NCBI GenBank assembly: GCA_951813535.1
Contig: OX638345.1
Coordinates: 3,092,608 to 3,156,607, forward strand
DNA from: an uncultured Dehalococcoidia bacterium
GTDB taxonomy: Bacteria; Chloroflexota; Dehalococcoidia; Lucifugimonadales; UBA3495
Length of the DNA stretch: 64,000 nucleotides
Direction: 5' to 3'
Shown here: positions 52,063 through 56,851 of the stretch, in pieces
Layout: each line of letters begins with the position of its first letter
Position numbering within the stretch: the stretch's first letter is position 1
Notes under the pieces: generated by a model
Database searches by the model: none
The model's input: only the letters and a program-made list of their open reading frames with translations
Told to the model about the DNA's origin: nothing
Made by a program: the position numbers and the translations under genes

Positions 52063-52067
52063 CTCGC

Positions 52068-52080
52068 GATACGCCGTATC
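52068..52080. promoter_or_regulatory. Operator-like palindrome before the regulator gene
   Basis: GATACGCCGTATC, a perfect 6-1-6 palindrome located between the -10 box and the regulator ATG. Nearly the same sequence (GATACGCCGTATT) is one of the five boxes at 52581-52713, so the regulator probably controls itself and the next gene through the same sites. Confidence 0.6.
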
Positions 52081-52083
52081 ATT

Positions 52084-52551
52084 ATGGTAGCGCAGGCACA
52101 GCGACATTCCGGACACGAGCATCCGCGACCGCGTTCCGCAGCGGTGGTGGACGACATTGTGGGCCAGCTGAGCGACCGGGGATACCGGGACACCGAGCCA
52201 AGGCGGCTCGTGATCAGCGCCGTGGCCGCCCAGGGCCGGCCCTTCACGGCGGAAGAACTGTGCGCCTCTCTCCCCTGCGTGGGACGAGCCACGGTCTACC
52301 GCGGTCTGCGCCTCCTCGTGGAAACCGATCAGGTCTGCCGCGTGCTGCTGGAAGACCGCGAACTACGCTACCAGCTCAGCCACCAGGGACACCACCATCA
52401 CCTATTGTGCGCCGTCTGCGGAGCATCGGCGGACCTGGAAGGATGCGACGTCGAGGATATGCTCCGCGAGGCCGCCACAGCCGCGGGGTTCCGGATGAGC
52501 GGGCATTGGCTGGAAGTGTACGGCCGATGCGGTGAGTGCGCCGAGGGCTGA
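52084..52551 (+). CDS. Fur-family metal-responsive transcriptional regulator (probably Zur-like)
   Basis: A 155-residue Fur-superfamily repressor. The winged helix begins near residue 20 with LSDRGYRDTEPRRLVISAVAAQGRPFTAEEL and ends with the recognition helix region GRATVYRGLRLLVETDQV. The dimerisation domain has HQGHHHHLLCAVCG, with the regulatory-metal histidines and the first Cys pair, and a closing CGEC pair near residue 150 for a structural zinc. Its neighbour is a zinc-binding transport protein, so Zur is the best guess; Fur, Mur or PerR specificity cannot be read from sequence. The promoter has an embedded palindrome (52068-52080) that would allow autoregulation. Confidence 0.9.
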   Translation: MVAQAQRHSGHEHPRPRSAAVVDDIVGQLSDRGYRDTEPRRLVISAVAAQGRPFTAEELCASLPCVGRATVYRGLRLLVETDQVCRVLLEDRELRYQLSHQGHHHHLLCAVCGASADLEGCDVEDMLREAATAAGFRMSGHWLEVYGRCGECAEG

Positions 52552-52580: not shown

Positions 52581-52713
52581 TTGATACCAACTATCTTTAG
52601 CATCGTATAATCGATACCAAATATCGTTAGCTCCACAGAATTGATACCAAATATCATATGTACATTTAATTGATACGCCGTATTGATTAGGTAGCCAATT
52701 GAAACCAACTACA
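52581..52713 (+). promoter_or_regulatory. Five operator-like boxes at 29-30 bp spacing
   Basis: Boxes start at 52581 (TTGATACCAACTATC), 52611 (TCGATACCAAATATC), 52641 (TTGATACCAAATATC), 52670 (TTGATACGCCGTATT) and 52699 (TTGAAACCAACTACA). Their spacing of 30, 30, 29 and 29 bp places them about three helical turns apart on the same face of DNA. Each is a GATA...TATC-type palindrome, weaker in the last. TTGATA of boxes 1 and 3 also serves as a plausible -35, with -10 boxes TATAAT at 52606 and TTTAAT at 52665. Likely binding sites of the Fur-family protein. Confidence 0.75.
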
Positions 52714-52726
52714 ACGGAGCAAACCG

Positions 52727-55000
52727 ATGAAGCCACCCATTAGAACATCCCTAACCATCACTAATGCTTTCCCGCTGCAGCGGGCCCTGGCGCTATTTAC
52801 CGCGCTGGCGGTAATTGCGCTGCTGCTGACGGCCTGCGGGGGAGAAGAACCGGGCCTCCCTCCGTCTGATTCTTCGTCCGCCGCAGGTTCCGTGCCGCCG
52901 GTCGCGGCCGCATCGTCAGATCCGACCGCCGCCCCCGCATCTGCTCCATCTCAGCCGTCGGCCCCCGCAACCGGTTCCGCCCCAAGCGAACCCGTCAAGG
53001 TGGTGGCCGGAAACGTTGTCCTCGCCGACCTGGTGCGCCAGGTGGGAAAGGACTTGGTGCAGGTGGATACCCTGGTCGCCGCCGGCGCTGATGCCCACAC
53101 CTGGCAGAGCACGCCAAGAGACAGCGTGCGCATCGCGGAAGCGGACCTCGTCGTCAGCAACGGCGCGGGGTTCTCCAGCCAGGTCGAGAGTCTGATCGAC
53201 AACGCGACGTCCGCAGACGCCGTCCGGGTGATCGCATCCGAAGGTTTGGAGCCCCAGGAACTCGTGGAACTACCTTTCCCCGAAGCAGACCATCACGAGG
53301 AAGAAGAACACGAACTGGAGCTGGCGGGTCGGCTGCTGATTGGCGACGGTGAGACGGGCGCCCTTTCTATCATCGACCTGGAGACCGGGGAAGTCCGTCA
53401 GGACGCGTTCGATCTCGGTTCCCGCGCCGGCCGGATCTATCCTACGAAGAGCGGACGCTTCGCCGTCGCCGTTTCCAGCGACGCCAATGCGGTGAACATC
53501 GTCGACGGCGGCATGTACCTGGAAGAGCACGGCGACCACGAGGACCTGGTGGAACGGGACGTGTCCACTCTGGGTATCGACCTGTCCGGCGACCGCCCGG
53601 TGCACCTGTACGTGGGAGGCGAGTGGGCCTCCGTGTTCTACGATGGCTCGGGGGACATCGTCCTGCTCAACGAACACGAACTGGAAGAGGAAGGCGCCTC
53701 CTACGAACCCATCGTGCTCAACGCCGGCCCCCACCACGGCGCGGCCGTGCCGCTGGCGGACGACCTGTTCGCCGTCACCATCCAACACCCCGATTTCGCG
53801 CAGAGCCCGGACGACTACCGGCGGCCCATCGGCGCTGAGATTTGGGACCTGGAAGGCAACTCACTGTACCGTGCCGAGGGCTGCCCCGATCTCCATGGCG
53901 ACGCTGGCAACGGGCACATGGCCGTTTTCGGCTGCACCGGCGGCGCGCTGATGGTAGAAGCTCACGACGGCGAGTACGAGCATGCTTTCATTTCGCCCCC
54001 GGCCGGATCACCCGACGACTTCCGTCTGACTTCCGTTTGGGGGTACAACGGTCTCGACCACTTCTTCGCCCTGGGGTCGGCGGTTGGCCTGTACGTCGTC
54101 GATCCGGAAGAAGGCGGGATGGAGCAGTTGATCGCGGCCAGCGAGGATCTGCGACCCATCCAGGTGGCGCTCAGCCACGACGGCGAGTTGCTGGTGGTGA
54201 TCATGAGCGACGGCGAGGTGCGGCTGTACGAGGCCCATGACCTGGACTTGCTGGCATCATCATCCGACGCCCTGGGCGACGAGATCGATCCCAGCTTCTG
54301 GGCCCGGCCCCATGTGGCCACCGCCCCGGGTCGCATCTTCATCACCGACTCGGCCGCCGGTGAAGTGATCGCCCTGGAATCCCACGACCTGGAGGAAGCG
54401 GGACACTGGGAAGTCGCCGGCAAACCCACCAAGATCGCCTTCGTGGGGGTATTGTCAGGCGAGGAACACGCCGAAGAGGGGCACGATCACCGCGAGGGCG
54501 ACCCACACTTCTGGCAAAATCCCCGGATGGTGGTCCATTACGTGAACCAGATCACCAACGGGTTGGTCGAGGCGGACCCGGCCAACGCCGCGGCGTACTT
54601 GGACAACGCGGCGGGTTACATCGAGGAACTGGAGGCCCTGGACGCCTACATCGTCGACGCGCTGGCTTCGGTACCCGCAGAACGCCGCGTGATGGTGACC
54701 TTCCACGACGCCTTCGGATACTTCGGCGAGCGCTATGACGTGGAGGTCCAGGCCTTCGTCGGCGCCCACGCTGAGGACGTTTCGCCTGACGATATCGCCA
54801 ACGTCCTGGAACTGGTGGAACACCGTGGCCTGCCCGCCGTGTTCGCGGAACCACAATTCTCCGGCGATGCCCTGGGGCAGGTTGCCAGGGACACCGGAAT
54901 CCAGGTCGGGATAATTCGCTCGCTGCCGGACGACGAGTATCCTGATTACATCAGCATGATGCGGTCCAACGCGGATCAGTTGGCGCAAATGTTGCGGTAA
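52727..55000 (+). CDS. Zinc-binding lipoprotein (ZnuA/AztC type) with an AztD-like propeller inserted
   Basis: A 757-residue lipoprotein (lipobox LLTAC, Cys37) with a Pro/Ala/Ser linker (about 41-88). The ZnuA/AztC-type lobe begins at about 90 (VVAGNVVLADLVRQVGKD), with zinc ligand His124 in GADAHTW. Where the His-rich loop of ZnuA should be, residues 189-195 (HHEEEEH) lead into about 370 residues (199-572) of beta-propeller closely resembling AztD: GRLLIGDGETGALSIIDLETG, PHHGAAVPL, CPDLHGD and FGCTGGALMV. A second His cluster (581-588) returns to DPHFWQNP (His594), then VTFHDAFGYF (His660) and a probable Asp735/736. It fuses a periplasmic zinc chaperone into its own receptor. No permease or ATPase gene is adjacent. 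Confidence 0.88.
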   Translation: MKPPIRTSLTITNAFPLQRALALFTALAVIALLLTACGGEEPGLPPSDSSSAAGSVPPVAAASSDPTAAPASAPSQPSAPATGSAPSEPVKVVAGNVVLADLVRQVGKDLVQVDTLVAAGADAHTWQSTPRDSVRIAEADLVVSNGAGFSSQVESLIDNATSADAVRVIASEGLEPQELVELPFPEADHHEEEEHELELAGRLLIGDGETGALSIIDLETGEVRQDAFDLGSRAGRIYPTKSGRFAVAVSSDANAVNIVDGGMYLEEHGDHEDLVERDVSTLGIDLSGDRPVHLYVGGEWASVFYDGSGDIVLLNEHELEEEGASYEPIVLNAGPHHGAAVPLADDLFAVTIQHPDFAQSPDDYRRPIGAEIWDLEGNSLYRAEGCPDLHGDAGNGHMAVFGCTGGALMVEAHDGEYEHAFISPPAGSPDDFRLTSVWGYNGLDHFFALGSAVGLYVVDPEEGGMEQLIAASEDLRPIQVALSHDGELLVVIMSDGEVRLYEAHDLDLLASSSDALGDEIDPSFWARPHVATAPGRIFITDSAAGEVIALESHDLEEAGHWEVAGKPTKIAFVGVLSGEEHAEEGHDHREGDPHFWQNPRMVVHYVNQITNGLVEADPANAAAYLDNAAGYIEELEALDAYIVDALASVPAERRVMVTFHDAFGYFGERYDVEVQAFVGAHAEDVSPDDIANVLELVEHRGLPAVFAEPQFSGDALGQVARDTGIQVGIIRSLPDDEYPDYISMMRSNADQLAQMLR

Positions 55001-55164: not shown

Positions 55165-55746
55165 ATGAGTCGCAGTGTCACCGCCGGGATAGTTGTGGCA
55201 TTCATTGCCACGGCGATTGTCGCGATCCTGGTGCTCATTTTCCTGCTGACCAATCGAGCTGCGTCGACCCACGCCGACCTCACGGCTACGGCTGCCATGG
55301 TATCCCAGTCCGGCGACGCGATGGGGACGGTCACGTTCCAGCAACAGGGCGATGTCGTGGTGGTCGCCTTGGACTTGATCGGATTCCCCACTGGCGGTCA
55401 CGCGGTCGCCGTCCACGCGGTGGGTAGCTGTTCTCCCGATTTTGCCGCAGCTGGGGACCACTTCGAAGCCGAACCTTCGCGGATTGGCTTCGTCCATCCC
55501 AATTGGAAACGCAATGGGGTTCACGGAGATCACGGCGGAGACCTGCCCAACGTCTACGCCCACGCCGATGGATCCGCTCGCGCTGATTTCGCAACCGACG
55601 GGTTCACGCTGCTACTTGGCCACGACCACTCAATATTCGACGCCGACGGGTCGTCCATCGTGATCCATGAACTGCCTCAGGATTACGGAGTCGCGGAAGG
55701 GGACACCGGAGCAAGGGTGGCATGCGGCATCATAGACCGTAACTGA
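55165..55746 (+). CDS. Cu/Zn superoxide-dismutase-fold protein lacking one copper ligand
   Basis: A 193-residue membrane-anchored protein (hydrophobic segment at about 8-30). The SodC fold is clear: AGDHFEAE, HGDHGGDLPN, SSIVIHELPQDYG and TGARVACGII. By alignment with human SOD1 the ligands are His48=H84, His63=H99, His71=H120, His80=H123, Asp83=D126 and His120=H168, but position 46 is Ala82 in HAVAVH (normally H-x-H). The disulfide Cys pair (C89, C187) is retained. The zinc side is therefore intact and the copper side incomplete, so dismutase activity is doubtful; a metal-binding role fits its neighbour. GGAGG precedes the ATG. Confidence 0.82.
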   Translation: MSRSVTAGIVVAFIATAIVAILVLIFLLTNRAASTHADLTATAAMVSQSGDAMGTVTFQQQGDVVVVALDLIGFPTGGHAVAVHAVGSCSPDFAAAGDHFEAEPSRIGFVHPNWKRNGVHGDHGGDLPNVYAHADGSARADFATDGFTLLLGHDHSIFDADGSSIVIHELPQDYGVAEGDTGARVACGIIDRN

Positions 55747-55894: not shown

Positions 55895-56851
55895 ATGCAG
55901 CCGAACACCATAGCGCTCCTAGCACTCGCGGCCATCCTGCTTCTGACTGCCTGGAGTGGCTGCCGGTCTGGAGCCGCCTCCCCCTCCGGCAACCCGGAAT
56001 ACACCCGAACGCCGGCCCTGTCTGCTTACATTGGGAGCGTCGACGAGGTGATCGGCCCGGAGGGCCCGGTCTCCTCCGCATTTGATGACGCCGAATTCCG
56101 GCAGTTGCGCCGGCCCGATGCTATCCTGCCTGTATACGATCCGGCATTCCTCGACGCGCGCCAGTCCGATTTGCCCGGCGACGAGTTGGTCATCGGGCTC
56201 AATATCAACGGGGATGCGCGGGCCTATCCGGCCGGGCTCTTGTATCACCGCGAGATGGTGAACGATACCGTTGGAGGCGTGCCGGTGCTGGTCACCTGGT
56301 GCCCCCTCTGCTACACGGCGCTGGTGCACGACCGTCGGGTGGGCGGCAGCGCAGCCGTGTTCGGCAACCAGGGGGCGCTGTACAAGGGAGCGATGACCTG
56401 GTACGACCACGCCACGGGCAGCGTTTGGTCCCAACCTCTCGGAGAGGCTATAGCCGGCCCCCTGGCCGGAACTGACCTCGAGTTGGTGCCGTCCCAGCTA
56501 ACGACCTGGGAGCAATGGATTGCCGCCAATCCCCACAGCCGAGTGCTCGTTTCGGATATCCCGTCCACACCTTACAGCGGACGCCGACCGGGCGAGGATC
56601 ACGTGGCAGGCGTGGTGGTTAACGGCCAAGCCATGGCGTGGCCTTACCTGTCGGTGCTCGACGCCGAGACCCTGAACGCTCACATTGGAGGGATCGACCT
56701 CGCCATCGGCGTGGACACGGATACCGGAGCGATCCGCGCAGTCGCGTTGAACCGGGACAAAACGGAGCTGCCGGTGATCATCGCCTACCGGTGGGCCTGG
56801 GAAAAACTGTACCCCAACGGGCAGGTTGACAAAGGCCATCGTGTTCGGTAA
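55895..56851 (+). CDS. DUF3179 domain lipoprotein
   Basis: A 318-residue exported lipoprotein with the signal LLLTAWSGC. DUF3179 marks are RAYPAGLLYHREMVNDTVGGVPVLVTWCPLCYTALVHDR, with a conserved CPLC pair, then FGNQGALYKGAMTWYDHATGSVWSQPLGEAI and ELVPSQLTTWEQW. Members occur widely in marine and soil bacteria; their function is not known, though the Cys pair suggests a metal or thiol role. It stands alone between the SOD-like gene and the transporter genes; the promoter of the latter starts inside its 3' end. Confidence 0.9.
   Translation: MQPNTIALLALAAILLLTAWSGCRSGAASPSGNPEYTRTPALSAYIGSVDEVIGPEGPVSSAFDDAEFRQLRRPDAILPVYDPAFLDARQSDLPGDELVIGLNINGDARAYPAGLLYHREMVNDTVGGVPVLVTWCPLCYTALVHDRRVGGSAAVFGNQGALYKGAMTWYDHATGSVWSQPLGEAIAGPLAGTDLELVPSQLTTWEQWIAANPHSRVLVSDIPSTPYSGRRPGEDHVAGVVVNGQAMAWPYLSVLDAETLNAHIGGIDLAIGVDTDTGAIRAVALNRDKTELPVIIAYRWAWEKLYPNGQVDKGHRVR

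Follow-up and report, generated by a model that had tools for sequence, protein, structure and literature searches.

In the AztABCD system of Paracoccus denitrificans, the zinc receptor AztC and the zinc chaperone AztD are separate proteins that are slow to meet (PMC6689063, PMC7463823), and their association, at about 10^3 per M per s, is the rate-limiting step of the transfer of zinc from AztD to AztC (PMC6689063). The 64,000-nucleotide stretch of DNA from an uncultured Dehalococcoidia bacterium that was analysed here (hereafter the window) contains one gene in which the two proteins appeared to be joined. The initial annotation had read its product as a ZnuA/AztC-type lipoprotein with an AztD propeller nested in its histidine-rich loop, and had proposed that the metal is handed over within the chain. 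The question raised by this locus is therefore whether such a composite protein truly exists, and whether its organization would allow zinc to pass from chaperone to receptor within a single polypeptide.

A receptor domain interrupted by an AztD-type propeller

The gene is a single open reading frame, which starts with ATG and is uninterrupted by a stop codon (Table 1). The presence of a lipobox suggests that its product is a lipoprotein. The Pfam family ZnuA (PF01297) matched this product in two pieces, with a score of 246 bits for a cut-off of 29. When the two parts were scanned separately against NCBIfam, residues 85-197 aligned with positions 1-96 of the AztC profile and residues 572-757 with positions 91-276; both segments of the profile being covered, the receptor domain is complete. 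The interruption falls at profile positions 91-96, immediately before the DPHFW ligand motif, and thus in the loop where the insert had been placed by the initial annotation. A sequence search of the PDB returned AztC-type receptors that match both flanks of the insert. Both the PF01297 score and the presence of the three cleft histidine ligands assign the protein to cluster A-I (ZnuA/TroA).

Table 1. Positions in the window of the fused gene, of its domains and ligands, and of the upstream regulatory elements.
Feature	Positions	Strand	Basis
Fused receptor-chaperone ORF, 757 aa, predicted lipoprotein	52727..55000	+	ORF reading, Pfam/NCBIfam/PDB matches
Signal peptide and lipobox (LLTAC, Cys37), then Pro/Ala/Ser-rich linker	52727..52837	+	read from sequence
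Cluster A-I receptor domain, N-terminal half (residues 86-190), zinc ligand H124	52982..53296	+	
N-side His cluster (residues 189-195) preceding the propeller, variable among relatives	53291..53311	+	
AztD-type beta-propeller cassette (residues ~199-580)	53321..54466	+	profile, PDB and fold matches
AztD zinc site 2 hairpin HGDHED (H268, H271, D273 = PdAztD H99, H102, D104), predicted donor site	53528..53545	+	alignment; function PMC6689063
AztD zinc site 1 ligands H293, H337, H390 (PdAztD H124, H167, H218), propeller channel	53603..53896	+	alignment
Disulfide cysteines C386, C403 (PdAztD C214, C231)	53882..53935	+	alignment
C-side His junction (residues 581-588)	54467..54490	+	
Receptor domain, C-terminal half (residues 586-757), zinc ligands H594 and H660, conserved E708	54482..54997	+	
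Palindromic box (GATACGCCGTATC core) just 5' of the Fur gene start	52066..52082	+	
Fur-family regulator gene, candidate Zur	52084..52551	+	profile match; synteny
Five operator-like boxes (TTGATACNNNNTATC) at 52581, 52611, 52641, 52670 and 52699	52581..52713	+	29-30 bp apart

The insert itself was recognized as AztD. Residues 207-574 covered positions 3-355 of the AztD model NF038015 (E 2e-36), and in the PDB sequence search residues 189-588 matched the AztD structures 6ck1 and 6cmk (E 9e-32). For the receptor part, the best NCBIfam model was AztC (NF040870, an equivalog). Neither part reached the curated cut-off of its model: the receptor scored 190.9 bits for a cut-off of 350, and the propeller, despite coverage of the full profile, 125 bits for a cut-off of 400. 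The exact family names 'AztC' and 'AztD' are therefore too strong. With this qualification, profile, PDB and fold matches confirmed the initial reading, and we describe the protein as a cluster A-I zinc receptor (ZnuA/AztC-like) that carries an AztD-type beta-propeller inside its His-rich loop.

The fold of the insert was assessed on structure models. The whole-chain AlphaFold model, built from eight sequences, had a pLDDT of 50 and was too poor for showing how the propeller docks; AztD chains took all of its nine best fold matches, and cluster A-I receptors, AztC among them, came next, a result that we regarded as supporting evidence only. The propeller modelled alone reached a pLDDT of 70 and a pTM of 0.77. 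With Foldseek, its nine best matches were AztD chains (TM 0.71-0.79), and with VIA-align it superimposed on 6ck1 with a Z score of 35.1 (rmsd 3.2 over 359 residues), as compared with 22.8 for the next, unrelated propeller. The latter alignment paired residues 31-408 of P. denitrificans AztD (PdAztD) with residues 4-386 of the model, and ended at the C-terminal zinc ligand of PdAztD, which corresponds to residue 580 or 581 of the window protein. These models indicate that the insert has the AztD-type propeller fold over its full length. Of the limits initially given for the insert, residues 199 and 572, the first was retained and the second had to be moved to about residue 580.

Zinc ligands and the two junctions

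In PdAztD, only site 2 donates zinc to AztC, and the fourth ligand of this site is the C-terminal His408 (Neupane et al., PMC6689063). Site 2 sits on an extension to which both terminal strands and a hairpin contribute (PMC6689063). We assigned the ligands of the fused protein by alignment with the AztDs of Paracoccus, Shinella, Thermus and Deinococcus. The site-2 hairpin was found at residues 268-273 as HGDHED, a key motif that the initial annotation had overlooked, while all the elements that it had quoted (H124, H594, H660, PHHGAAVPL, CPDLHGD, FGCTGG and the His tracts at 189-195 and 581-588) proved to be at their positions. Among 60 fused rows of the alignment, H268 and D273 were kept in all 60 and H271 in 59, whereas for site 1 the counts were 59 for H293, 56 for H337 and 55 for H390. 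No other element of the fusions is as strictly conserved as site 2. The cysteines C386 and C403 were kept in 60/60 fused and in 14/14 standalone AztDs.

The standalone AztDs that we compared end in the site-2 histidine, except for one in which a ZinT domain follows. Among 57 fusions in which the distance was measured, 54 have a histidine 5-12 residues past the blast-defined end of the propeller. In the window, H581 lies 13 residues before the receptor ligand H594 and, judging from the alignment, it probably replaces the C-terminal His408 of standalone AztD as the fourth ligand of site 2. The initial annotation had viewed the His clusters on either side of the propeller as the path followed by zinc during an intrachain hand-over. 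The chemistry that such a hand-over would require is indeed in place, and the part assigned to the two clusters fared less well. The N-side cluster is variable, with a single histidine in the 20 residues before the propeller in 7 of 57 fusions, and the N-terminal His-rich motif of Paracoccus AztD is dispensable for zinc transfer (PMC7463823). The C-side tract is present in all fusions and plausibly supplies a ligand to site 2.

On the receptor side, H124, H594 and H660 were kept in 58/58 fusions. The fourth AztC ligand, Asp279, is not conserved in the fusion clade: the corresponding column holds Leu733 in the window protein, and the Paracoccus motif YSDAL corresponds to RSLP or YTGSL in the fusions.

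Gene neighbourhood and distribution

A gene for a Fur-family regulator precedes the fused gene in the window and in most relatives. This regulator is probably a Zur, although sequence comparison did not separate Zur from Fur or PerR. Operons with the order Fur-receptor-permease or, as is often so for the fusions, Fur-receptor-ATPase-permease occur in relatives. The fused gene is followed by an ATPase and a permease, whose families were checked, in L058, L061, L064, L120, L121, L131 and L132. Those relatives that have a name are MAGs assigned to Chloroflexota and Dehalococcoidia. Within the genus, the fused gene often has directly after it a gene for an ABC-3 permease that is 71-77 percent identical to one encoded elsewhere in the genome of the window; in this genome, ABC ATPase or permease genes adjoin neither of the two fused copies.

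An array of five boxes of the form TTGATAC-N4-TATC, the fifth of which (52699) has three mismatches, sits between the Fur-family gene and the fused gene, and their spacing suggests that several regulator dimers bind in phase on one face of the DNA. Across the genome, TGATACNNNNTATC has six exact matches, of which four fall at the two fused loci, and none when the pattern is read backwards. The remaining two matches, at or in unrelated genes, look like chance and were not retained as real boxes. Boxes related to these, in part with the same spacing (L041, L023, L061), also precede fused genes of other families and orders. Before the detached ABC-3 permease, the matches to the box were no better than chance.

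Other features of the neighbourhood were also recorded. A gene for a Cu/Zn superoxide dismutase adjoins the fused gene in the window (55165-55746) and in L037, L042 and L044, being located between the fused gene and the permease in L042; this adjacency suggests a zinc-responsive unit. A DUF3179 gene stands beside the fused receptor or the permease in the window (55895-56851) and in L040, L041, L043 and L057. The Fur-family gene that precedes the second fused copy (L054:6657-7151) is split over two frames, so that this copy may be without a working regulator of its own.

The initial annotation had suggested looking elsewhere both for the same architecture and for separate AztC and AztD, and both were found. 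The fusion recurred widely in a search that covered 99 relatives and 393 genomes of the class, while on the plasmids examined from Thermus, Deinococcus, Paracoccus and Shinella the genes are separate. Of the 46 AztD matches of the class sample, 32 belonged to frames of 763 codons or more and 14 to frames of 372-583 codons. A second group of the phylum also has the fusion, in two genomes (L120, L121), and we collected 58 distinct full-length fusions from the two groups of Chloroflexota. The genome of the window, which is complete in a single contig of 4.38 Mb, contains a second fused copy with 76 percent identity as well as two receptors that lack the insert and are accompanied by ABC genes of their own. 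In the insert-less relatives L057, L067, L071 and L073, an ordinary His/Asp-rich loop occupies the position of the insert. The first of these (L057:8434-9573), which is from the same genus and shows the same Fur-receptor-permease order, likely represents a loss of the cassette or the state before its gain.

Some variant arrangements were encountered. L129:5076-8176 comprises two tandem standalone AztD genes, and a receptor gene was not found nearby. In L070:6419-9187, the frame of the fused receptor continues into an ABC ATPase (922 aa), which is either an assembly frameshift or a further fusion. A gene annotated as AztD on a Phyllobacterium plasmid (L119:3911-5716, NZ_CP104968.1) in fact encodes AztD and, after a His-rich linker, a complete ZinT domain (PF09223, E 3e-82); it is another fusion of zinc-recruiting domains, in this case end to end.

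Cassette exchange and proposed zinc transfer within one chain

The histories of the two parts of the fusion were compared through two trees, one built from the receptor after removal of the insert and one from the AztD part of the same ORFs. In these trees, which were made by a quick method and include some long-branched rows, the genus of the window grouped with insert-less receptors according to the receptor (99 percent) and with fusions of many other families according to AztD (100 percent). Pairwise identities diverged likewise: the window and L058 share 71 percent identity in AztD but only 37 percent in the receptor, while L132 and L120 share 38 percent in AztD and 68 percent in the receptor. 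Clades defined by one domain were then rejected when forced together in the data of the other, as was observed for a 28-row AztD clade in the receptor data (AU p 4e-57), and for the receptor clade L132, L098, L120 and L121 (p 2e-57) and a larger receptor clade of 25 fusions (p 3e-8) in the AztD data. Paralogy alone was ruled out as the cause of this conflict, since both parts were taken from the same ORFs. These findings strongly support the conclusion that the AztD cassette was exchanged between receptor backbones, and in every case at the same loop. Direct repeats on either side of the cassette, which would be a trace of its movement, were searched for and not found.

We propose as the likely function of the fused protein, though with reservations, that it serves an ABC zinc importer as its surface lipoprotein receptor, and has a built-in chaperone that passes zinc on within the chain. 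The propeller would bind zinc at site 2 through H268, H271, D273 and a histidine of the C-terminal junction, probably H581. Since the termini of AztD are part of the site-2 extension, joining both of them to the receptor loop, and hence to the two rims of the receptor zinc cleft, should hold the donor site beside the acceptor site formed by H124, H594 and H660. Zinc would then pass within the chain, the slow association of two proteins being removed, and the loaded receptor would dock on an ABC-3 permease, encoded by the adjacent gene in many relatives and elsewhere in the genome of the window. When zinc is plentiful, the adjacent Fur-family regulator, if Zur-like as is probable, would repress the fused gene through the array of boxes. 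Counted against this mechanism are the absence of Asp279, the low pLDDT of the whole-chain model, a regulator whose sequence fits Fur or PerR as well as Zur, and the lack of a significant box at the detached permease and of ABC genes next to the two fused copies of this genome. That AztD is a transplantable cassette which, through several exchanges into the same loop, makes of the receptor a single-chain relay from site 2 to the cleft, with no protein-protein encounter, is a broader reading to which we give slightly better than even chances; the relay is the part of it that we infer.

We considered the possibility that the propeller acts as a store or scavenger of zinc on a tether, which would raise the local zinc concentration at the membrane or serve other clients, such as the neighbouring Cu/Zn superoxide dismutase or the insert-less receptors, without direct hand-over to its own cleft. 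Two high-affinity sites and long His tracts would suit this role, as would the superoxide dismutase genes that adjoin the fused gene and the standalone AztD genes found in some Chloroflexota without a receptor nearby. Yet, the insertion is precisely at the cleft-side loop, a position conserved over great divergence, and conservation is stricter at the donor site 2 than at site 1, which is of the storage type, so that we consider a mere store unlikely. It is even less probable that the fused receptor serves another metal, manganese or iron. YfeA and MntC are indeed among its best single receptor matches in the PDB, the Asp279 ligand is not conserved and the regulator is assigned merely to the 'Fur family', but the three cleft histidines, including the third, are invariant in the fusions, AztC is the best NCBIfam model and the insert has a zinc chaperone fold in which the zinc sites are intact. 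A ligand set of three histidines is typical of zinc receptors.

Cleavage after export, releasing a receptor and a chaperone that would act as the known separate pair, also seems very improbable to us. The linkers are flexible, acidic and in some relatives long, features that could make them prone to proteolysis, but cutting at both junctions would halve the receptor domain, and a conserved protease motif was not seen. The idea that the gene is a false ORF or an assembly fusion is refuted by the occurrence of 58 distinct fusions in independent genomes, with invariant ligands down to about 30 percent identity, and the window belongs to a single-contig genome; we give it virtually no credence. 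The evidence as a whole thus leads us to retain transfer within the chain as the preferred reading.

This architecture can be compared with that of known receptors. Plain ZnuA-type receptors have the same fold and the same loop position, but no inserted domain. The anchored-repeat ABC substrate-binding proteins of TIGR03772 are interrupted at about the same place, the N-terminal half of the fusion aligning with positions 2-79 of this profile and the C-terminal half with positions 311-485; their inserted part, which from its name ('anchored repeat') we take to be another domain, is not matched by the AztD cassette. The separate AztC and AztD share with the fusion the two folds, zinc sites 1 and 2, the disulfide, the three cleft histidines and a zinc gene neighbourhood with a Fur-family regulator and ABC-3 partners. 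They differ from it in that the fusion is a single polypeptide, the chaperone being housed within the loop of the receptor, and is devoid of Asp279; identity with the Paracoccus plasmid relatives is about 28 percent for the AztD part and 32 percent for the receptor part. In the published docking model of AztC and AztD, which is unverified, the receptor loop enters the propeller channel. Such threading seems impossible in the fusion, because the receptor loop is there the tether to the ends of the propeller, while site 2 could still face the cleft. The AdcA protein of streptococci is similarly a zinc receptor lipoprotein covalently joined to a zinc-recruiting domain (PMC7858048, PMC6689063), but this domain is a lipocalin-like ZinT that is appended as a separate domain, rather than an AztD propeller inside the receptor loop.

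Fusions of a receptor with a recruiting domain are thus already known from AdcA, and what is new here is the nesting of AztD in the loop and the exchange of the cassette, of which no description was found in the literature searched, which covered few subscription papers. The hand-over from AztD to AztC has so far been known from kinetics and from a docking model, for two separate proteins. The single-chain version makes both testable: transfer should become first order, and the geometry of the linkers sets limits on the orientation of the two zinc sites towards one another. The His-rich loop of a zinc receptor can accept a whole folded chaperone and, if the reading of AztD as a transplantable cassette is correct, this loop would be a general socket for accessory metal-recruiting domains.
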